From contig NC_014654.1 of assembly GCF_000166415.1 (NCBI RefSeq), positions 2,542,001 through 2,606,000 on the forward strand: a stretch of 64,000 bases of DNA, in the 5' to 3' direction. Below, piece by piece: positions 2,248 to 13,078 of the stretch. Under the pieces are notes generated by a model. It was not told the origin of the DNA. It did no database searches and saw only the letters and a program-made list of their open reading frames with translations. Position 1 is the stretch's first letter. Each line of letters begins with the position of its first letter. Made by a program: the position numbers and the translations under genes. This DNA is from Halanaerobium hydrogeniformans (GTDB lineage Bacteria; Bacillota; Halanaerobiia; Halanaerobiales; Halanaerobiaceae).

Positions 2248-2305
2248 ATTTTAAATGGCGCGCTCGGAAGGATTCGAACCCTCAGCCTACTGATCCGTAG
2301 TCAGT
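2248..2305 (-). repeat. attL: partial copy of the tRNA-Arg 3' end
   Basis: 58 bp identical to 12994-13051. It contains the T arm, the 3' acceptor strand with CCA and the anticodon arm of tRNA-Arg, then diverges at the D-arm side. It is not a functional tRNA. Confidence 0.9.
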
Positions 2306-2508
2306 TTTCCTGGTTTTTACTTGATTTCATCTATAATTATACTTGCCGATATATAAGGCTTCTCAACGGTTTTTGATTATAGAAACCTATTAAATTTTAT
2401 TTTTTCTCACAAATCATGGCTACGAAATGGCTATTTGGGCTATTTATATCCATCGGTAAAATTGTAAGTTATTTATAAAAAATGGCGGGGAAATGACGGG
2501 GATTTCTA
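2306..2508. other. Left end of the islet with integrase arm-type repeats
   Basis: No gene seen. CATGGCTACGAAATGGCTA at 2415-2433 matches 12909-12927 at 18 of 19 bases in the same orientation. It is built from 11-bp units of the form ATGGCTACRAA, as expected for arm-type binding sites of a tyrosine integrase near an attachment site. Confidence 0.5.
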
Positions 2509-3234
2509 TTAACTATCTAGACTATCCTCAACAATCTGAATCTCTTCATCGGTTAGATCATACAGTTTATATACCATCCTATCTATACCTCTATCAATCT
2601 TATCTATTTCATTTTCCAGATCCTTAATCTCCTGCTGCAGGTCCTTCCACTCTTTAACAACCTTTTTGACTACATGTTCCTTATCATAATCAGGTATTTC
2701 TATTTGCAGTGTTTTCTTTAAAATATTGCCGCTATATTTCTCATCAATTTCAGCAAGCTGCTCATCAGTTAAGTTTTCAAGATAATATTTAAGATATTGT
2801 CTTTTATATCTATTATCCTCTTCAAATTTTAATACTTCATATTTCCCACTGCTAGATTTATCAAGATATATTGTAACAATATTTGTATTTATGTTAATCG
2901 TATAATTTCTTATTTTTCTAGCTCTACCTGAATATATTTCGTTAGTGAAATTTGAATTTTTTATTATATTTTCTAAATTAAAACCTAATTTTGATGTATA
3001 CTTTAAAGTTAACTTACTAAATTTTATATTTTTTAATTTATTAAATCTTTTTTTCTTAGAAACTATTTTCTCGACACCCTTAATGATTTTTTTCTCAAAA
3101 AAACGATCTTCGGCCTCATTTATAGGAAATCTTTTAAGCTCATTAACTTTAAATTGAGGGTATATATCTCTCTGAAACTTGTCAAATGTATATTCAAACC
3201 AAAATGATATGGTGAATTGCAACATGCAATGCAC
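2509..3234 (-). pseudogene. Type IIG restriction-modification enzyme, C-terminal fragment
   Basis: This is the distal part of the gene continued at 4456-7116. Genuine enzyme sequence begins at ISFWFEYTFDKFQRD (about 3210) and covers the target-recognition region (PQFKVNELKRFPI) and a C-terminal coiled-coil segment (EWKDLQQEIKDLENEIDKID). The first eight or so residues of the open frame (GTG at 3234) are read from the end of the IS30 element, and no ribosome site precedes them. Removing the element and one copy of the 15-bp duplication joins this frame to the N-terminal part without a shift, giving one protein of about 1,130 aa. Confidence 0.8.
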
Positions 3235-4455
3235 GCTTTTTTAATCTTTCTTAAAATCACCTGTACCTTCATTACTTCTAGACACTAAAGCTTAATTTCT
3301 CTTTAAATAATTTATCTGAGTTTTCATAGTTAAACATTTTTCTAGGATAAGTATTTATAAAATCCTGAATCTTTTTTATCAGTTTTCTCTTAATACCTTT
3401 AAAACTTGTGCCTTTAGGTAAAAATCTTCTGATAAACTTATTAGCTACTTCATTTGATCCCCTTTGCCAGCTACAGTATGCATCACAATAATACAAACTA
3501 GTTCTAGGTATACTGCTACCTGTATATGATTGTTCTATACCTTCATAATCTGCAAATTCTGAACCGTTGTCTGTAGTAATCGATTTAAATGTTTCCCTAA
3601 AATTAACAACCCCAAATCGTCTTTCTATACGATCAAGTCCTTTTACCACTGACTTTGCTTTTTTGTTTGGTATTTTTTCTATGATTTCCTGCCTAGTTTG
3701 TCTTTCTGTCAGCACTAGTAAGGCAGGTTCATCTTTTTGTTTTAACCCTTCTACTAAGTCCATCTCCCAATGCCCAAATTCCTCCCTGGTATCAGCTCCT
3801 TCAGGCCTATCTCTAATTGTACGACCTTCCTTACGCCTCGTAGTGCTTTCACTTTCTTTTGGTCTGTCTTTCCCAGTTTTATAATTACCATGTGGGAGAT
3901 CGCTTCTGTCTATATTCAAAACACCTTTATCTATGTAATTATAGATTGTTTTCCAGTGTAATTGAATTTCAAATTTATCTGATTCTTCAATGTCTTTTGC
4001 CACTGCTGCAGGAGATCTTAATTCCTTGATTTTTTCTTCTATAAATTCTGCTAACTCTTTATTTTTATCGATTTTTAAATCAGGGCCTTTATTCGAATTA
4101 TTAAATTCATATACTTTCTGTGCTATCTCTGGTACATATTCTTTTCTGGTTGTTCCATCACCATTATCAAGTTCTACCTCACCTTTTTTTATTTCTCGAC
4201 TGATTGTTGTTCTATGGCAGTTTAATTCTTCGCCTATTTCAGTATAATTTTTTTCTTGGACATTATATAAATGTTTAATTAATTTGCGATCATCAAAATT
4301 CAGGTGTTTTCCTTTGCTTCGTTTTGTGTTACAATTACTTTGACACATATTCTGTACCTCCTAATGTTTTTGTCGCTATTAACATTATACAAAAGGTACA
4401 GGTATGTGTCTATTTTTTTATCTAATCACCGCGTGCATTTAATTATACAATTCAA
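3211..4455 (-). mobile_element. IS30-family insertion sequence with 15-bp target duplication
   Basis: The element of about 1,245 bp splits the type IIG gene. The inverted ends begin with TGAATTG at 3213 and at 4454 (complement) and match at 19 of 24 bases, both finishing in AATGCACGC. The 15-bp sequence AAACCAAAATGATAT flanks it directly at 3196-3210 and 4456-4470. Most IS30 elements duplicate 2-4 bp, but some members (IS1630 of Mycoplasma) make long duplications, so 15 bp is unusual yet credible. Confidence 0.8.
3278..4348 (-). CDS. IS30-family transposase
   Basis: A 356-aa DDE transposase that excises and inserts its element. The N-terminal HTH (residues about 14-53: LNFDDRKLIKHL, then NYTEIGEELNCHRTTISREI) is the IS30 hallmark. 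The catalytic core has D in GHWEMDLVEG, D in ITTDNGSEF and E in QRGSNEVANKFIRRF. An AGGAGG ribosome site precedes the ATG at 4348. Length and all three catalytic residues look intact, so the element may still be active. Confidence 0.9.
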   Translation of the reverse strand: MCQSNCNTKRSKGKHLNFDDRKLIKHLYNVQEKNYTEIGEELNCHRTTISREIKKGEVELDNGDGTTRKEYVPEIAQKVYEFNNSNKGPDLKIDKNKELAEFIEEKIKELRSPAAVAKDIEESDKFEIQLHWKTIYNYIDKGVLNIDRSDLPHGNYKTGKDRPKESESTTRRKEGRTIRDRPEGADTREEFGHWEMDLVEGLKQKDEPALLVLTERQTRQEIIEKIPNKKAKSVVKGLDRIERRFGVVNFRETFKSITTDNGSEFADYEGIEQSYTGSSIPRTSLYYCDAYCSWQRGSNEVANKFIRRFLPKGTSFKGIKRKLIKKIQDFINTYPRKMFNYENSDKLFKEKLSFSV

Positions 4456-7116
4456 AAACCAAAATGATATCAATCTTGAATTTAAAATTCCTAATAAATA
4501 AAGAGGATTAATTTCATCTTTAAAATCATAAATGACCATACTATTAATATCATTTAGATAACAATCCTTTATATAAACTGAGTTTATACAATAAGGTGGT
4601 TTTGAAGGGATTTGTCTAACTAAAATTCTTTCTTTAGTAAAATCTATTGAATACCTTGGTTCAGCTAAGAAATCACCATATTTTAAATATTCTCCAGACC
4701 AATCTACAAAATATCTTTTTACGTCTCTTCCTTCTAAATAAGGATAATGTTTTTCTGTTTCTTTATTATTAGAATGAAAAATTCTATTATTCTTAATATT
4801 TTCAGTTTGTTTTGGGGTTCCTTTTCCTACCTGATATGCTTTAAGCCCCGTGGAAACTGTGGCAAACTTAGATAATTTTATAGAGTATTTATTTATCTTA
4901 TTTAAAATCATTTTTATATTTTTCTTTTCAACCATAGAAATATTTATAATATAATCTTCATTAGTTAAAAAGAATTCAGAGTTTTCCTTAATTAGTGTAG
5001 GAAATTCTGAGTTATACTTTCCTACTTCAATTTTTTTTGCTCCTGATTTAGAAAATATACTAATACAACTATCTACATTAGCATCACTAAAAACTTCATC
5101 ATGAGTATTGATTATCTGTATGTTTTTCATTTTTCTCAAAACATATTTTCTAAGTTTTTTAAAACTATTAATAGTTAACCAATTGTTTGGAATGATATAA
5201 CCAAACCATCCTAACTCATTTAATAAATTAAAGCCCTTTTCCATAAAAATCACAAAAGTATTTAATTGATATGTATTTAATTGATAGTTGTCATAATAAT
5301 ATCTTTTTTGTTCATCAGTAAAAGACTGATTTCTTGCAAAAACATAAGGTGGATTACCAACAACAACATCAAATCCACCAGCTGCCATAATAGCTTCAAA
5401 TTCCTCTTCCCATTTAAAAGCTTTATCACCAGCAACTTCCGGATCATCAATAATTGAATTGCCACACTTGATATTATCATCAAGATTAGTTAAAGGTTTT
5501 TGCTTATTAGCAGTTTTTAACCACAAAGATAATTTAGTTATTTCAACAGATTCTTCATTTAAATCTACACCAAAGATATTATTTTTTAAAATATCCCGTT
5601 GCACTGCATCTAGGGCAAAAATACTGCTCTGGCCACCTTTGAGCAAATCTCTCTGTTTATTAAGCCATTTATGCTCTTCTAATAAATAATCAAACGCTTG
5701 ATTCAAAAATGCCCCACTACCACAAGCAGGATCTAATACTTTAATACTTTTAAGTTTTTCCTCATATTTTTCATAAAACTCTAAATGCTGATCAGTATAT
5801 CTAGTTTTCCATCCAGCACTCCCAGCCTCTTCAATATCTGGGAGTTTATAATATCCTAATTCTTCTTTTCTCTCCTCTAAATATCCACCTACAGCATTTT
5901 CGACAATATAACTGGTTATGTATTTTGGGGTATAATATATCCCATCTTTTTTCCTCTTTGACTCATTTTTATCAAACTCATCATCCTGAATATCGGACTT
6001 CAATTTTTCTATATCACTAATTGACTGCTCAAAAATATGACCAAGAATATTAACATCAAGATCACTGTCAAAGTCATAATCGGAGATATCATAAATAGCA
6101 TCAAAAAAATCATTACCAATAAAAAGTCCATCTAGCTCGGCATCATATTCAAATAATCCACCGTTGTAAGCATTAATGTTATATTTAGGATTCCCCTGGT
6201 CAACAGAACGGAAAACACCTCTAATTTGGTCCCATACAGCAGTTTTGCTGGGTGAAAAAGACTCTTTGCCCCTTTGTATCGCTTCATGCAATAAATCATT
6301 TGGTAGCAGGCCCTTATCCTCACAAAAGGCTATAAAAATAATTCTATCCAAAAACTTCTGAGCTTTTTCTAACAGCAGCTCAAATTCAATCTCACTATTA
6401 TGTTCTTTTAAGTGCTCAAATAAGTTTATCCTGATGTTTTTATACAGGTTATAAAATTCAACAGAAATATTTTCTTCTTTCTTGATGGTTTTTTCTGATA
6501 ATTTTAAAGTAACACTTTCTCCAGTTTTAGATATTAAATTATCTTTATTTAAAAGGTAATAAAACTTTTTGAATTCTTCAATATTATCAAGCTCATCCAA
6601 TAAGAAGACTTCATAATATTCTTTGCTACGACCAACTTTATATAATCTAATTTCCATAAAATTAGATACAATTACCCACTGGCATTTATCCAGTTTATTT
6701 GTATAACTGAATGCCTGATCTACTGGAGACTTATAAGTAGATCCTTTTCTTTTCTGATCTTTATCTAATGACACCTGGGGCCCTTTCAATTCAATAACAG
6801 CTTCATGACCTCTTATCTCTTCATTCTCTACTCTTTCAAAATAACCAAGAATCCCGTCAGGGTGTTTAGCATCAATATCAGTAGTAGCTTCAATATCAAG
6901 TGTCCATTCAGCTTCCTGAGGTGTATTTTTATAACCTAAAACATCCTCAAAAATTGCTTTAAGAAAAGCACTTTGCAGCCTCTTTTCATTTAAGCCTTTG
7001 ATTTTACTTAAACTATTCTGCCAACTTGTTATCTTAGCAATTTTCTCCTCTATATCATCAATGGAATAATTTTTTATTCTGCTCTTTAATATTTTCTTAT
7101 TAAATAATCCTGGCAC
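4426..7116 (-). pseudogene. Type IIG restriction-modification enzyme, N-terminal part, interrupted by IS30
   Basis: A single-chain nuclease and adenine-methyltransferase of the Eco57I/type IIG kind. The N-terminal PD-(D/E)XK nuclease shows PD at residues 86-87 (HPDGILGYFE) and ExK at 109-111 (AVIELKG). The methyltransferase has motif I LDPACGSGAF at about residue 460 and motif IV GNPPY at about 586. I start at GTG 7116, which has AAAGGA 8 nt upstream; the longer frame to 7161 starts with TTG and has no ribosome site. True enzyme sequence ends at ISFWF (4456); the last nine residues are read from the IS30 end. The target-recognition part is lost, so specificity and probably activity are gone in this allele. 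The gene is last in a row of three leftward genes. Confidence 0.85.
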
Positions 7117-7244
7117 ATTATCATCCTTTCTGTATAAAATTACCTTAATATAATATTTCAACAGAAAAAAAGAAAGTCCTTTATTATATAATATTAATAA
7201 AAAGACCAGTCAGATTAATGGTTGGTCTCAAGAAAATAAATTTA

Positions 7245-7691
7245 TTATTCTTTTGATAACTGAATCATTTTTGAAATTACTTGTTTTAAATAATCACTAT
7301 AAAATATTTCCTTCAATATTTTTTTAAATTGAGAAAAATCACTTATAGAAATTTTGTTATCTTCCAAACCAATATCATAAGCTATCTCCTCATTTAATAA
7401 TATTATTAATGGATATATAGATATATTATAATGTATTGAAAAAATTCTATAACTATAATTATCTAAATATTTTCCTTTTAACTCATAATTAAAATTAAAA
7501 TCTTTTTTCATAAAATCAGGTTTCGAATTATGTGAGAGTAAATCACCAAGTATATCTCTTTTAGACAAATCACCATAAATAATTCCATTTGTTATTTCCA
7601 TTAGTTTTTCAGACTGTTCTTTTAGAACTTTATTTGGAGCATTATATTCTTCTTTAGGGGAATTTAAATCTTCAGGCCATAAACTTTCCAT
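7245..7691 (-). CDS. Hypothetical protein, 148 aa, between EEP and type IIG genes
   Basis: Not recognised. A soluble, acidic, mostly helical-looking protein with no signal peptide or membrane segment. It starts 11 nt after the upstream EEP gene stop, with a ribosome site (GGAGG) in the gap, so the two are very probably co-transcribed; the type IIG gene follows 128 bp downstream. The residues DYLKQVISKMIQL near the end suggest a C-terminal helix. Position in a restriction islet suggests an accessory or partner role to the EEP protein, but this is inference from context only. Confidence 0.6.
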   Translation of the reverse strand: MESLWPEDLNSPKEEYNAPNKVLKEQSEKLMEITNGIIYGDLSKRDILGDLLSHNSKPDFMKKDFNFNYELKGKYLDNYSYRIFSIHYNISIYPLIILLNEEIAYDIGLEDNKISISDFSQFKKILKEIFYSDYLKQVISKMIQLSKE

Positions 7692-7702
7692 TATTCTCCT
7701 CC

Positions 7703-8503
7703 TTAATTAATACTAAAAAACAAAGGCAAATGGTCACTGATATTTTGATCCGGTCTATTAGACAGCCCTAATAAATTAATATTGCCTATTTTGTTAACAA
7801 TCATAATATTTTCTTCATCAAAGTTTTCAATTAAATTCGGTCTTATTATAACTTGATCAAAAATATTCCAAAAATAATTTATTTCTTTAGAGTTGTTATA
7901 AAAATAAGTTCCAGGTAGATTATCGCTATCACCAAAAAAATTCCACATCGGATTATAAAACATACTATGCTTTCTACCTTTAACTGTTCTTTCATAGGTC
8001 TTTGCAATTCTTTTTGAGGATAAGGAATGCATTCCGGTTGCAGCAATAAGAGGTTCTTCAAATGGATTCATATTAAAATCTCCAACTACTATTGTGTTAT
8101 TATTTGATAGATTATTTTCAGCTTTTTCTAAATCCTTTTTGAAATTAATCATTTCTATAAGATAATCTAATTTGGTCATATGCAACTTGCTTGGGAAATG
8201 GACAGCACCAATATTATGAAATCCTAATTTGTCATGTGGAATTTTCTTTATAGTGTAATAACTAGTTTCTGCAAAATGTTCAATTAACCCTGGTGTATAT
8301 TTAGTTAATATATCTATTCTTTGACACCCAATTTTAGGCACATGATACAAACCAAAATTTTCATTCGTTAATTTTGTTAATAAAGTATTAATATCATCTT
8401 TATACTCAGCTAAAACTACTATGTCGCAGTTCAATTCTATAATTAAGCTTTTTAAATAATTATTAATTTTATTACGATTAGTATTCCAAAATAAATAATT
8501 CAT
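7703..8503 (-). CDS. Endonuclease/exonuclease/phosphatase (EEP) family protein
   Basis: 266 aa of the metal-dependent EEP fold (DNase I / AP-endonuclease / sphingomyelinase superfamily), which cuts phosphodiester or phosphate ester bonds. The signature is visible in order: N-terminal LFWNTNRN (metal-site Asn), VVLAEY (catalytic Glu), VVGDFNMNP (Asp and Asn) and the C-terminal SDHLP (Asp-His pair). All key residues are present, so activity is plausible; the substrate is not predictable. No signal peptide, so cytoplasmic. Ribosome site GAGGAGAT precedes the ATG. An IS3 element lies only about 50 bp upstream and has probably replaced the native promoter region. It is first of three leftward genes with the 148-aa gene and the type IIG gene. 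Confidence 0.75.
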   Translation of the reverse strand: MNYLFWNTNRNKINNYLKSLIIELNCDIVVLAEYKDDINTLLTKLTNENFGLYHVPKIGCQRIDILTKYTPGLIEHFAETSYYTIKKIPHDKLGFHNIGAVHFPSKLHMTKLDYLIEMINFKKDLEKAENNLSNNNTIVVGDFNMNPFEEPLIAATGMHSLSSKRIAKTYERTVKGRKHSMFYNPMWNFFGDSDNLPGTYFYNNSKEINYFWNIFDQVIIRPNLIENFDEENIMIVNKIGNINLLGLSNRPDQNISDHLPLFFSIN

Positions 8504-8618
8504 AAACTAATCTCCTCAAAAGTAATAATTTATTTTCCCATCCCTCTATATAGCCCCCTAACAGAATTGGAGAAAAAGTTTGAAAGTGATATACTCTAAT
8601 TACAAGGGGGAAACACCA

Positions 8619-8930
8619 ATGGCAAACAGAAAATATTCCGATGAAACTAAAGAACAAATTGTAAAAGAATGTCGCGAAATAGGTAACACAGCTCTTGTAG
8701 CAAGACGACATAATATTTCTAAGCATACTGTTTACAGCTGGGTCAAAAAAGCTAAAGAAACAGGATCAGTTAGATCTCTTCCTAAAGATGAAAAAAAGCA
8801 AATGAAAGAGATAGAAAATAGATTAAGTAAAATGAGCGATGAAAATGATAAGCTCAAAAAAATTGTAGCAGAAAAAGAATTAGAATTAGCGATTTTAAGG
8901 GAGTTGAGAGATAAAGTAAACCCCCGATAG
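8619..8930 (+). CDS. IS3-family OrfA (HTH protein)
   Basis: 103 aa: a helix-turn-helix of the HTH_Tnp_1 type (residues about 8-45, with IGNTALVARRHNISKHTVYSWV) and a leucine-zipper-like coiled coil (ENRLSKMSDENDKLKKIVAE). The ATG at 8619 is chosen for the AAGGGGG ribosome site 8 nt upstream; the frame extends 13 codons further without one. The end carries a slippery heptamer for a -1 shift into orfB. Confidence 0.85.
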   Translation: MANRKYSDETKEQIVKECREIGNTALVARRHNISKHTVYSWVKKAKETGSVRSLPKDEKKQMKEIENRLSKMSDENDKLKKIVAEKELELAILRELRDKVNPR

Positions 8931-9886
8931 CCCTCAAAGTTCAGATTGCATCAAAGTGGATAAATAAAGGGTATAAAATCTCTATTGTTTTAGACTTTGT
9001 TGGGCTTAATTCTTCCACTTACTACAGTAATATAAATAGAAAAACTGAGAGTGAAAGTACTAATAGCAGCAATTCCAATAATCCTCAAGGAAGACCTGTC
9101 CCTGGGTATTCTCTAACTGAATCAGGTGAAAAAATATCTGATGAACAGATTAAAGAATGGCTCTTAGAACTGGTTGCAGGAGATGGCTTCCCTTATGGTT
9201 ACAGGAAACTTACAGTCTGTTTAAAAGAAGACTATAACTTGAAAATAAATAAGAAAAAAGTATACAGGTTATGCAAAGAACTGGATATATTAAGATCGCA
9301 AAGAAAAATCAAAAAATTTAGACCTAAAAAGATTGCAAAACAGGAAGAAATTACAGAACCAAATCAACTCTGGCAGATGGATTTAAAATACGGCTACATA
9401 AATGGAACAGATCAGTTCTTTTTCCAGATGTCAGTAATTGATGTCTTTGATAAGACTGTTATAGATTATCACCTGGGACTAAGCTGTAAAGCTAAAGATA
9501 CCTGCAGGGTATTAAAGGCTGCTTTAAATAAAAGAAAGCTGTATAAAGGCATGAATTTGCCTAAAATTAGAACAGATAATGGACCACAATTTGTCTCTAA
9601 ATTATTTGGAGACACCTGTGAAAAACTGGGGGTAGAGCATCAGAGAATTCCAGTTAGAACACCTAATATGAATGCTCATATAGAATCATTTCATTCGGTT
9701 TTAGAAAAAGATTGTTATTCAATTAATGAATTCAGTAGTTTTATTGACGCCTATAAAAAAGTCAGTGAGTATATGAATTATTATAACAACAGATACCGTC
9801 ATGGCAGTCTTAATGATATGCCTCCAGCAAAATTTTATAAACTGGCTAAAGCAGAAAAAATAGTTGCTGAACCAGTACTCGCCTAA
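8921..9886 (+). CDS. IS3-family OrfB transposase (made by -1 frameshift)
   Basis: The frame is open from the slip site to 9886. The rve integrase core carries D in WQMDLKYG, D in IRTDNGPQF and E in AHIESFHSVLEKD. No ATG with a ribosome site lies before the core, so the product is expected only as an OrfAB fusion through A-AAC-CCC at 8918-8924 (frame gtA AAC CCC), six bases before the orfA stop. All catalytic residues are present, so the element may be active. Confidence 0.8.
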   Translation, partial: PPIALKVQIASKWINKGYKISIVLDFVGLNSSTYYSNINRKTESESTNSSNSNNPQGRPVPGYSLTESGEKISDEQIKEWLLELVAGDGFPYGYRKLTVCLKEDYNLKINKKKVYRLCKELDILRSQRKIKKFRPKKIAKQEEITEPNQLWQMDLKYGYINGTDQFFFQMSVIDVFDKTVIDYHLGLSCKAKDTCRVLKAALNKRKLYKGMNLPKIRTDNGPQFVSKLFGDTCEKLGVEHQRIPVRTPNMNAHIESFHSVLEKDCYSINEFSSFIDAYKKVSEYMNYYNNRYRHGSLNDMPPAKFYKLAKAEKIVAEPVLA

Positions 9887-9918
9887 ATCAAAAAATGAGA
9901 AACTAAGAATGAGCGAGC

Positions 9919-10185
9919 TTAACAAACATATTTTCCATATTTAGGGGGTTGAACCGTCCCTTTAATACATTCCTTACAAACAGACTTCCCCTCATACTCA
10001 AAATTATCATCAGCACTACCACAAAAAATACAGGCTGGCTCATACTTTCTTAAAATGATTTTATCTCCCTCAATAAATATTTCCATTGGATCTCCAGAAT
10101 TGATATTTTTAGCCTTCCGCAGCTCTTTGGGTATTACTACACGTCCTAAATTGTCAATTTTTCTTACAATACCTATTGTTTTCGA
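9919..10185 (-). pseudogene. SpoVT/AbrB-type regulator, start codon lost and 3' end cut by IS3
   Basis: The frame reads KTIGIVRKIDNLGRVVIP, then KELRKAKNINSGD and MEIFIEGDKIILRKYEPACIF, then a CxxC...CxxC pair (CIFCG, CKECI). This is the swapped-hairpin AbrB domain plus the short zinc-ribbon-like tail of Firmicute AbrB/SpoVT regulators. The expected start position holds TCG, seven or so bases after AAAGGA, so the start appears mutated (possibly from TTG). The last residues are read from the IS3 end. Before the insertion it probably lay upstream of the EEP gene in the same direction. Confidence 0.65.
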
Positions 10186-10483
10186 TAGCAGATCCTTTTA
10201 TTATCACTCTATATAAATACAATTATACACAACTCTAAAATATCCTGCTAATTTACTATATTTATACAATTAATCTTAAAAACACTTAATATAAAACAAA
10301 AACATTTGAGGCTTTTGTATTATTTGTATAAATAATGTAAATCTTTTTAAATTTTTGCAGGATAATTATTTGTAATCGATAATATATAAGTTAGACATAA
10401 AATTTAATATTTTAATATTAATAGCAAAATATTCGAAAGATTATTACGCAAAAGCTTGAATCTAAGGAGTTTTAATATTCTAT
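10186..10483. other. Intergenic AT-rich stretch, no gene seen
   Basis: About 300 bp of very AT-rich sequence between the AbrB remnant and IS3 element #2. No frame, tRNA or strong hairpin was recognised. Confidence 0.5.
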
Positions 10484-10610
10484 GATTGTCAAGCCTGCCT
10501 CAGATATTTATATCACAGTGATGATTCTGGATCGGGTATAATTAATTAAACAGTTTTTTCTCGGACATGATATAATAAGATAATAACAAACTAAAATGGA
10601 GGAAAATATC

Positions 10611-10883
10611 ATGCCTACAAAATATCCTGAAGAAATCAAAAGAAAAGTTGTTGCTCTGGCCAATAATGGTAAAAATCAAACTGAAATACTCAATGAATAT
10701 GGAATGGCAAGGTCCACACTTCATAAATGGATAAAAGACTATAATAACTCAGGTTCATTCAGCGCTAAAGATAATAGATCTGATAAAGAAAAAGAATTAA
10801 TTAAATTACAAAAAGAAAACAAGCAGTTAAAAATGGAGAATGATATTTTAAAGCAAGCGGCGCTGATAATGGGACGAAAGTAG
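10611..10883 (+). CDS. IS3-family OrfA
   Basis: 90 aa with an N-terminal HTH (YPEEIKRKVVALANNGKN, then ILNEYGMARSTLHKWIK) and a coiled coil (KELIKLQKENKQLKMENDIL). GGAGG lies 8 nt before the ATG at 10611. It ends ALIMGRK-stop, with the orfB frame already open in -1. Confidence 0.85.
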   Translation: MPTKYPEEIKRKVVALANNGKNQTEILNEYGMARSTLHKWIKDYNNSGSFSAKDNRSDKEKELIKLQKENKQLKMENDILKQAALIMGRK

Positions 10884-11722
10884 CAGTTATTAAGGCAAAC
10901 AGGGATAAATACAGTATTAGCGCCATGTGCAGAGCACTCAATATATCAAGGGGTATGATCTATTATACCCCTAAAGAAAAACAGGTTGATGTTGAACTAG
11001 AAAGCGAAGTGATTTCCATTTACAAAGCAAGTAGAAATCACTATGGAACCAGAAAAATCAAAAGAGAATTAGCTAAAAAAGGTTATCAGGTGTCCAAGCG
11101 AAGAATAGGTAAAATAATGAAAAAATATAATCTAGTTTCTACTTATACTAAAAAACAATACAAAGTTCATTCTCCAAGCTGTAATGAAGATAAAATTGCC
11201 AATATTGTAAACAGAGAATTTAACAAAGAAGAAGCTCTAGACGTTGTTGTCAGTGATTTAACCTATGTTAATGTAAAAGGAAAATGGAACTATGTCTGTC
11301 TGATCATAGATCTCTTCAACCGTGAATTTGTTGGTTATGCAGCAGGTAAAAAGAAAAATGCCGAATTAGTAACTGAGGCTTTTAAAAGTATTAAAAGACC
11401 ACTAAATCAAATTAATATTTTACATACTGATAGAGGTAATGAATTCAAAAATAAAGCTATCGATGATATTTTAGTCAGGTTTGATATTGAGCGTTCTTTA
11501 AGCAATAAAGGATGCCCATATGATAATGCAGTGGCAGAAGCAGCCTTTAAAGTAGTTAAGACTGAATTTGCTTATGACAGAATATTTAACAGCTTTGAAG
11601 AGCTGGAATATGAGCTATTTGACTATGTTAACTGGTATAATAACCACAGAATCCACGGGTCGTTAGATTACCTAACACCTGTTGAATATAGATATTTAAT
11701 GTTCGATAAAAAATTGTTGTAA
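10877..11722 (+). CDS. IS3-family OrfB transposase (made by -1 frameshift)
   Basis: The frame is open from before the orfA stop. After an HTH_21-like region (YGTRKIKRELAKKGYQVSKRR), the rve core shows D in VVSDLTYVN, D in LHTDRGNEF and E in DNAVAEAAFKVVKTE, as in IS3-family enzymes. The overlap region reads gga cga aag tag and lacks a canonical heptamer, so the slip mechanism is less clear than in element #1. The ATG at 10925 lies too far inside to be the natural start. Confidence 0.8.
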   Translation, partial: KVAVIKANRDKYSISAMCRALNISRGMIYYTPKEKQVDVELESEVISIYKASRNHYGTRKIKRELAKKGYQVSKRRIGKIMKKYNLVSTYTKKQYKVHSPSCNEDKIANIVNREFNKEEALDVVVSDLTYVNVKGKWNYVCLIIDLFNREFVGYAAGKKKNAELVTEAFKSIKRPLNQINILHTDRGNEFKNKAIDDILVRFDIERSLSNKGCPYDNAVAEAAFKVVKTEFAYDRIFNSFEELEYELFDYVNWYNNHRIHGSLDYLTPVEYRYLMFDKKLL

Positions 11723-11737
11723 AAAGTATTGACAATC

Positions 11738-12660
11738 CACCTCCAACATATTTTGAGACTCTCTGATCATTGTAGTATAACTCAACAGTTATTTGCCCTC
11801 TAATATCACAGTATCTTACTACCGATGTAGAGCCGTAACCAAATAATATTCCTGCATAAGGTGTATTAACTCTAAGACTAGCATTTAAAAATCTTAAATG
11901 GTCTACTCTCGAACCAGCAGTCATATCTGAAGATCCAGACTGACTTATAAAACCATTTAATTGATAACTTCTTTCTTTAATAGGAATTTCTAAATCTTTA
12001 TTTGTAACTTGGTTCATAGTTAAATTTTTAATAGTTCTCATAGATAAATTCCCTCTACTAACACTATATCCATAAACATCACCTGTTTTTTTTCTCATCG
12101 GAATCCAATTTCCATAGTCAGCTAAATGATCATTTTTATGTCTAAATTGATATCCATCTAAATCCATATCCTTAGTTATAAAATAATTAGTTGAAAGACT
12201 ATACCTCATTCTCCACAATTGCTCTAAGGAATTTATATTATTGGAAAAACTGATTAAATTAAGATTTACAGTTAATGTTTGTCCTCCAGAAGGATTAATA
12301 ACTTGCTCGTTAGGATCAACCCCAACATTTCTTGGCCAGATAGTTATATAATGTTCTATTGGTTCAATATATAAAGAATAACTACCATTTTGTTCGTGTA
12401 AAAGATTTCCGACTGTTGCTATAGAATCCCAAATATCGGGAGCATCAATATGAGGAAATCTTTTCCATTGATCAAAAGCATTTACTCTAATCCAATCAAC
12501 CACTAAAGGGTCTCCACCTAAAAATACCGTACCTTGAATAAGAGCACTTTGATGCTGAGTAGAATTAACAGAAGCTCCGTTTTCCATCAATATCAAATTA
12601 ATAGTATTACCTAAATTTGTACCTTCGATTTCACTTCTTAAACCATTTTGATAAATTATT
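11738..12660 (-). pseudogene. Surface-protein fragment, truncated at both ends
   Basis: An open frame of about 300 codons without a credible start (no ribosome site; open back to 12668) whose 3' end is cut by IS3 element #2 after YVGGG. It contains LEQLWRMRYSLSTNYFITKD, GNWIPMR and, near the end, PYAGILFGYGSTSVVRYCDI and KYVGGG, resembling GLUG-type beta-repeats of bacterial surface proteins. It joins the integrase fragment head-on at about 12655-12668, so a rearrangement brought them together. Family assignment is tentative. Confidence 0.5.
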
Positions 12661-12903
12661 CGACCTGATTATGTTACAAGCAAATTCAGGAAATATGCCG
12701 ATTCAGCTGGATTTAATAATACAAGGTTTCATGACTTACGACATACCCATGCAACCTGGCTCTTACAAGAAGGTGTTCATCCTAAAATCGTCCAGGAAAG
12801 ATTGGGGCATTCAAAAATATCTACTACTCTTGATTTATATTCTCATGTAATACCTTCAATGCAAAAAAATGCGGTCCAAAAACTCAAAAAAATAAAAAAG
12901 TAG
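12655..12903 (+). pseudogene. Tyrosine recombinase (integrase), C-terminal remnant
   Basis: 81 codons in frame ending at the TAG at 12901: RFHDLRHTHATWLLQEG, then ERLGHSKISTTLDLYSHV. The box II residues H-x-x-R (HDLRH), the GHS histidine and the catalytic Tyr (DLYSHV) are present; the N-terminus with the first Arg is gone (TAA at 12652). It sits about 90 bp from attR, the normal place for an integrase gene. It shows how the islet entered tRNA-Arg and why it is now fixed. Confidence 0.85.
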
Positions 12904-12908
12904 AGTCG

Positions 12909-12931
12909 CATGGCTACAAAATGGCTACGAA
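12909..12931 (+). repeat. Integrase arm-type repeats at the right end
   Basis: Two tandem 11-bp units, ATGGCTACAAA and ATGGCTACGAA, lie directly after the integrase stop. The same units occur at the left end (2416-2437). Confidence 0.5.
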
Positions 12932-12935
12932 ACAA

Positions 12936-12967
12936 GAAAATCTCCCAAGTGAATTTTCACTGGGAGA
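12936..12967 (-). terminator. Terminator downstream of tRNA-Arg, brought by the islet
   Basis: On the minus strand a stem of TCTCCCA(G)TGAA with TTCA(C)TTGGGAGA is followed by TTTTC. It lies 3' of the intact tRNA and replaces the displaced terminator at 2191-2225. It could also act on the integrase transcript. Confidence 0.65.
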
Positions 12968-12993
12968 TGCTTAAGTTTACTGTTATATCAATG

Positions 12994-13051
12994 ATTTTAA
13001 ATGGCGCGCTCGGAAGGATTCGAACCCTCAGCCTACTGATCCGTAGTCAGT
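12994..13051 (-). repeat. attR: direct repeat overlapping tRNA-Arg
   Basis: 58 bp identical to attL at 2248-2305. It spans from 8 bp beyond the CCA end into the 5' half of the anticodon arm. Confidence 0.9.
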
Positions 13052-13078
13052 CGCTCTATCCAGTTGAGCTACGAGCGC
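13002..13078 (-). tRNA. tRNA-Arg (anticodon ACG)
   Basis: 77 nt with CCA encoded. Acceptor GCGCTCG pairs fully with CGAGCGC. The D arm is GCTC/GAGC, the anticodon stem ACTGA/TCAGT with loop CTACGGA (anticodon ACG), and the T arm has TTCGAAT. The 3' part is the integration target of the islet and its function is restored by the islet sequence. Confidence 0.97.

Follow-up and report, generated by a model that had tools for sequence, protein, structure and literature searches.

A conserved EEP-fold enzyme and its small partner form a mobile two-gene cassette, possibly of the toxin/antidote type

Introduction

Two adjacent genes of Halanaerobium hydrogeniformans, encoding an EEP-fold enzyme and a 148-aa protein, lie close to a type IIG restriction-modification gene, and an earlier note on this DNA had proposed them as a candidate defence system. 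The locus raises the question of whether the two genes belong together and what such a pair may do for its carriers. The second gene of the cassette has no family name, though the cassette spans many phyla and 3-kb Klebsiella plasmids. If the toxin/antidote reading discussed below is true, the bacterial repertoire of toxin-antidote and anti-phage modules would gain an effector of the EEP type and, with it, an RWD-like antidote. The pair is small and easily tested in E. coli. The stretch of DNA analysed here, referred to as the window, comprises 64,000 nucleotides (bases 2542001-2606000 of a 2,613,117-base single-contig genome).

The gene pair and its islet

The EEP-fold (DNase I/ExoIII-like) enzyme, the putative effector of the pair, is a protein of 266 aa with all catalytic residues present, encoded at positions 7703-8503 of the minus strand. 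After a gap of 11 nt follows the gene of the 148-aa partner (7245-7691, minus strand), a putative antidote or regulator with a conserved LW(P/G) N-terminus, a YP turn and a predicted alpha-beta4-alpha2 (RWD-like) structure. The intact EEP-fold gene and its tight coupling to the 148-aa gene had been claimed before, and the coordinates, lengths and gap proved to be exact. Strong-looking ribosome-binding sequences were found upstream of both the EEP gene (GAGGAGAT) and the partner gene (GGAGGAGA). On the 3′ side of the pair, a terminator-like hairpin with a U-run was read by eye at about 7197-7229 of the minus strand (fold z -2.3); it was absent from the output of a consensus terminator scan. Since this hairpin and U-run separate the pair from the type IIG gene, the pair is probably a transcription unit of its own, distinct from that of IIG.

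The pair resides in a decayed element of about 10.7 kb integrated at a tRNA-Arg gene (window 2248-13051). A 58-bp direct repeat is present as an att-like copy corresponding to the tRNA-Arg 3′ end (2248-2305) and as a second copy (12994-13051) that overlaps the 3′ end of tRNA-Arg(acg) (13002-13078, minus strand), and the C-terminal remnant of a tyrosine integrase adjoins the tRNA (12655-12903, plus strand; Phage_integrase, 1.8e-15). The repeat and the integrase remnant bear out the mobile islet described in the earlier note. Besides the pair, the element contains the type IIG gene, an AbrB/MazE-type remnant and insertion-sequence genes.

The type IIG gene, a neighbour outside the module, is interrupted. 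Its N-terminal part (4426-7161, minus strand) and its C-terminal part, assigned by position and a shared SFWF junction (2509-3234, minus strand), are separated by an IS30-type insertion (3196-4470, minus strand; transposase 3278-4348) with 24-nt inverted repeats (3213-3236/4431-4454). The insertion is flanked by a 15-bp direct repeat (3196-3210/4456-4470), which exceeds the length expected for IS30. The possibility that pair and type IIG gene form one module was rejected on account of this interruption and of the terminator-like hairpin between them; IIG is not a recurrent neighbour of the pair in its relatives, and the proposed link was abandoned.

Directly upstream of the EEP gene are IS3-type transposase ORFs (8580-9886, plus strand; 8580-8930 and 9239-9886), and beyond them lies the AbrB/MazE-type DNA-binding remnant (9919-10197, minus strand), which has no ATG, GTG or TTG start. 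The remnant had been described as sitting upstream in the same direction; the IS3-type genes intervene between it and the EEP gene. A second IS3-like transposase gene pair, apparently belonging to a different element from that at 8580-9886, was seen at 10596-11722 (plus strand), and a long open frame of 322-346 aa without a Pfam match (11628-12668, minus strand) overlaps transposase and integrase remnants.

The EEP enzyme and its relation to known nucleases

The window EEP matched Pfam Exo_endo_phos with a value of 3.2e-5, narrowly under the cut-off. Its AlphaFold model (pLDDT 96.3) matched ExoIII, DNase I and Tdp2 (Foldseek E down to 3e-11), with nocturnin also among the matches, and on this predicted structure the window enzyme has the EEP fold. 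DNase I, sphingomyelinase, TRAS1, Tdp2 and ExoIII all gave similar Z values of 18.6-19.9, so that the fold does not reveal the substrate. The DNase I/DNase1L3 and LINE-type endonuclease domains are like the window EEP in fold (Z 19-20) but show about 15% identity to it, and the window enzyme differs from them in being bacterial and part of a two-gene operon. A PDB sequence-profile search with the EEP favoured ExoIII/Mth0212.

Residues N7, E33, H102, D142, N144, D216, S256, D257 and H258 were invariant in 81 EEP relatives, and the catalytic set N-E-D-x-N-D-(S)DH was kept in every one of them. At the position of the ExoIII catalytic Tyr (Tyr109 type), all 81 pair EEPs have His, whereas 12 of 12 ExoIII sequences have Tyr; this is presumably the DNase I pattern, with a His134-like residue. 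The window EEP has in common with the ExoIII/APE-type AP endonucleases (xth, TIGR00633) the EEP fold and the N-E-D-N-D-H catalytic set, but it reached 18.8 bits against TIGR00633, for which the cut-off is 99, and the pair EEPs are further set apart by their obligate small partner. In the tree, pair EEPs and 15 ExoIII sequences fell on opposite sides of a branch with SH-aLRT 100, a separate clade that upholds the distinction from housekeeping AP endonucleases on which the original proposal depended. An ExoIII-family match was present in 27 of 36 pair-bearing genomes, with 25 over the cut-off. The unannotated family phrog_24714 matched EEPs of both clades described below (E 1.9e-10 for the window protein and 3.8e-28 for that of locus L102).

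The partner protein

The 148-aa partner of the window had no matches in Pfam or NCBIfam and none among the PHROGs, and across 81 partner sequences Pfam gave nothing but isolated weak matches attributable to chance. Its assignment to a known family was rejected, Pfam having no family for it and PDB no convincing sequence match; nor did the partner resemble any known antitoxin. The structural model is confident (pLDDT 90.6) and shows a main order of one helix, four strands and two helices, with a near-invariant YP turn (Y93, P94). Its best structural matches were RWD-like Mediator and kinetochore domains and actin-capping protein, with Z up to 7.8 and a best Foldseek E of 0.17. The RWD-like domains of the Mediator Med17 C-terminus, Csm1 and Spc24/25 have the same alpha-beta4-alpha2 order and conserved YP turn, but the partner stays below Z 8 and has no sequence match to them, and the arrangement may merely be a common one. 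The likeness to RWD-like domains is suggestive only.

Conservation of the pair

When viral contigs were searched with the window EEP, six relatives came up, and directly behind each of them lies a small gene whose product begins with LW or FW. An EEP profile search of one-genome-per-species contigs of 84,980 species yielded 274 relatives, of which 80 were kept, and a profile search of viral contigs yielded 14 loci. The 95 loci collected by EEP alone come from about 14 phyla and from viral contigs, with a few near-duplicates among them. In 86 of these 95 loci the partner profile matched immediately behind the EEP; in this group, clade A, the EEP gene comes first and the gaps are mostly of -4 to +25 nt. 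The nine loci without a partner match are accounted for as follows: the contig ends inside the partner, part of which is still visible, in L050, L060 and L075; less than 135 nt are left behind the EEP in L029 and L066; the EEP is broken and no intact partner is present in L015, L057 and L073; and the partner is present in diverged form in L102. Every uninterrupted EEP gene with assessable downstream sequence among the 95 relatives directly precedes a homologue of the 148-aa gene, and the pairing is far beyond chance. The two-gene module and the co-occurrence of its members held up on this larger set, with partners lacking an EEP encountered only as degraded or isolated exceptions. Apparent N-terminal fusions of the EEP in L074, L079 and L086 were read as spurious GC-rich extensions of the open reading frame, and a search of viral contigs with the single partner protein gave no match.

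The distances among EEPs and among partners were correlated (r 0.76), a value as high being reached in 0 of 999 permutations. In both genes dS was well above dN, a pattern that indicates purifying selection on EEP and partner. Among 398 genomes of its own phylum, a partner or full-length pair EEP was present in the window's genome alone, and a partner match was absent from 100 relatives, genus-mates included. The window EEP is closest to that of a Syntrophorhabdus bin (56%), followed by those of Clostridiaceae and Heliobacterium. Horizontal spread of the pair accounts for this most simply.

A second clade on phages and small plasmids

More distant EEPs, designated clade B, are followed directly by a small gene with the same obligate adjacency as in clade A. 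The profiles of the two clades are homologous both for the EEP (probability 99.9, E 9e-32) and for the partner (probability 92.5, E 5e-7). The clade B pair is nearly the sole cargo of 3-3.5-kb plasmids of Klebsiella, Edwardsiella and E. coli; 20 Klebsiella records carry it, and on a 3.5-kb ColRNAI Klebsiella plasmid the annotation comprises, besides the pair, Rop and a replication protein alone. The E. coli representative is pEC904 (3.07 kb), whose pair was absent from 5,426 E. coli genomes searched by megablast and blastn. Clade B pairs were also found on a 5.2-kb uncultured plasmid, on Photobacterium pdp3 and in a filamentous Vibrio phage. In filamentous and tailless prophages of marine Vibrio, genes for defence and for toxin-antitoxin systems are enriched at a variable accessory locus (PMC11630473).

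On two Acinetobacter plasmids an AbiD gene lies directly upstream of the pair (L106:3234-5536 and L181:4841-7239), and the AbiD, EEP and partner genes possibly form a three-gene operon there. In Acinetobacter prophages the pair directly follows the integrase; the order at L183:5869-8306 is integrase, EEP, partner and a FRG-domain protein.

Known defence systems and chromosomal neighbourhood

Members of the pair from either clade had no named-system match in PADLOC-DB 2.0.0; with NCBIfam equally silent, the earlier failure to match the pair to a named system was reproduced. Searches of an incomplete literature library found no paper describing the pair, and exonucleases are not mentioned in the main text of DefensePredictor. 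The predicted inactivated EEP domains of ARMADA II occur in YprA helicases, an arrangement unlike the pair (PMC12458937). The pair appears to be unnamed so far.

The defence-island setting suggested for the pair found little support among its relatives. Chromosomal copies appear to lie mostly outside such islands: as a raw count, only a handful of 126 immediate chromosomal neighbours matched PADLOC at 1e-5, and the Pfam matches of these neighbours were mostly housekeeping. The gene upstream of the pair was co-directional in 65 of 76 chromosomal loci (L009-L088) and often less than 100 nt away, so that many copies probably use a host transcript. Some copies are lineage-stable, beside recA in Chitinophaga and beside gnd/zwf in Methylovulum. 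Recurrent neighbours (gnd/zwf, glyQ, recA) were considered as clues to a pathway and rejected, being lineage-local. The pair was seen between gnd and zwf in L020 and L026, and between glyQ and a methionyl-tRNA synthetase-like gene in L039 and L040.

Possible function of the pair

Loci with a damaged or missing gene bear on the dependence between the two proteins. In L057 (6001-6756) residues 1-217 of the EEP run directly into C-terminal partner sequence through an in-frame deletion, the EEP of L015 is truncated and adjoins a transposase gene, and that of L073 has an internal stop; the partner, for its part, persists beside an EEP remnant in L170 and L172 and without an EEP in L168. Because EEPs lacking an intact partner are broken and partners survive without an EEP, this pattern of loss points to toxin/antidote dependence, an asymmetry that comes from few cases, in which some broken genes may be assembly errors.

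The explanation that we favour, as a serious possibility falling a little short of probable, is that the pair is a mobile two-gene effector/antidote-like nuclease module acting in toxin/antidote fashion or by abortive infection. The EEP would be a metal-dependent phosphodiesterase that most likely cuts DNA and does harm if unrestrained. The small RWD-like protein, translated directly after it, would bind the EEP and hold it inactive, and may also sense a trigger. Once a phage infects the cell or the element is lost, this restraint would fail, and the freed EEP would act on nucleic acid and either stop the phage or kill the cell (abortive infection or plasmid addiction). From the features of the pair we infer its direct EEP-partner binding, EEP toxicity, DNA substrate and anti-phage role; for the last of these, the carriage by phages and minimal plasmids, the two AbiD-EEP-partner arrays and the asymmetric dependence on the partner all argue.

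The pair is patchily distributed, travels on prophages and makes up the main cargo of minimal plasmids, which would suit an addiction or anti-phage module. As in type II toxin-antitoxin and abortive-infection modules, two small genes are tightly linked and carried by mobile elements, and the EEP effector is not kept intact without its partner, with few informative exceptions; a gene order with the toxin first is known, for example, from HigBA. The pair differs from those modules in that no PADLOC model matches either the EEP effector or the RWD-like partner, and in that toxicity is putative. More tentatively, the two clades may represent an unnamed family of mobile toxin/antidote-type anti-phage modules, in which a DNase I-like EEP nuclease is checked by an RWD-like protein; its members would occur in many phyla of bacteria, in an archaeal bin, in phages both tailed and filamentous, and on minimal plasmids. 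Against the toxin/antidote or abortive-infection explanation stand the chromosomal copies, which do not appear concentrated in defence islands and in some lineages sit stably beside housekeeping genes. Moreover, an enzyme needing an activating subunit would yield much the same pairing.

Such an enzyme could be an obligate two-subunit anti-phage nuclease, whose partner activates it or recognises the target while the complex itself cleaves invading or modified DNA. Strict pairing, correlated evolution, the DNase I/ExoIII-like fold and the carriage by phages and plasmids would all suit it, but partner genes that outlive the EEP are unexpected for an activator and no gene for self/non-self marking co-occurs consistently, which leaves this alternative unlikely.

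It is rather more doubtful that the two genes serve DNA repair or the processing of DNA ends, the EEP being an ExoIII/Tdp2-like accessory enzyme aided by a small cofactor, to the benefit of phages, plasmids and some hosts. The similarity of the fold to ExoIII and Tdp2 agrees with a repair role, as do the copies that stay beside recA or other housekeeping genes throughout a lineage; such a role is opposed by the ExoIII-family matches already present in most pair-bearing genomes, by the His in place of the catalytic Tyr and by the very patchy distribution.

We consider it improbable that the EEP is a partner-regulated phosphatase or phosphodiesterase for a small molecule (a signal nucleotide, NADPH, a lipid or a sugar phosphate) in defence, counter-defence or metabolism. 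As structural matches, sphingomyelinase, mannosyl-6-phosphatase, PDE12 and DNase I differ from one another by no more than about 1 Z unit, and nocturnin is a Foldseek match as well, but the profile search of PDB sequences favours ExoIII/Mth0212 and no signal-making gene is consistently nearby.

Finally, that the two genes are mere neighbours without joint function, swept together by the decaying tRNA-Arg island, could be suspected from the position of the window pair in a decayed element among insertion sequences, but this reading has almost no probability left and is refuted by the pairing conserved across many phyla, phages and plasmids.
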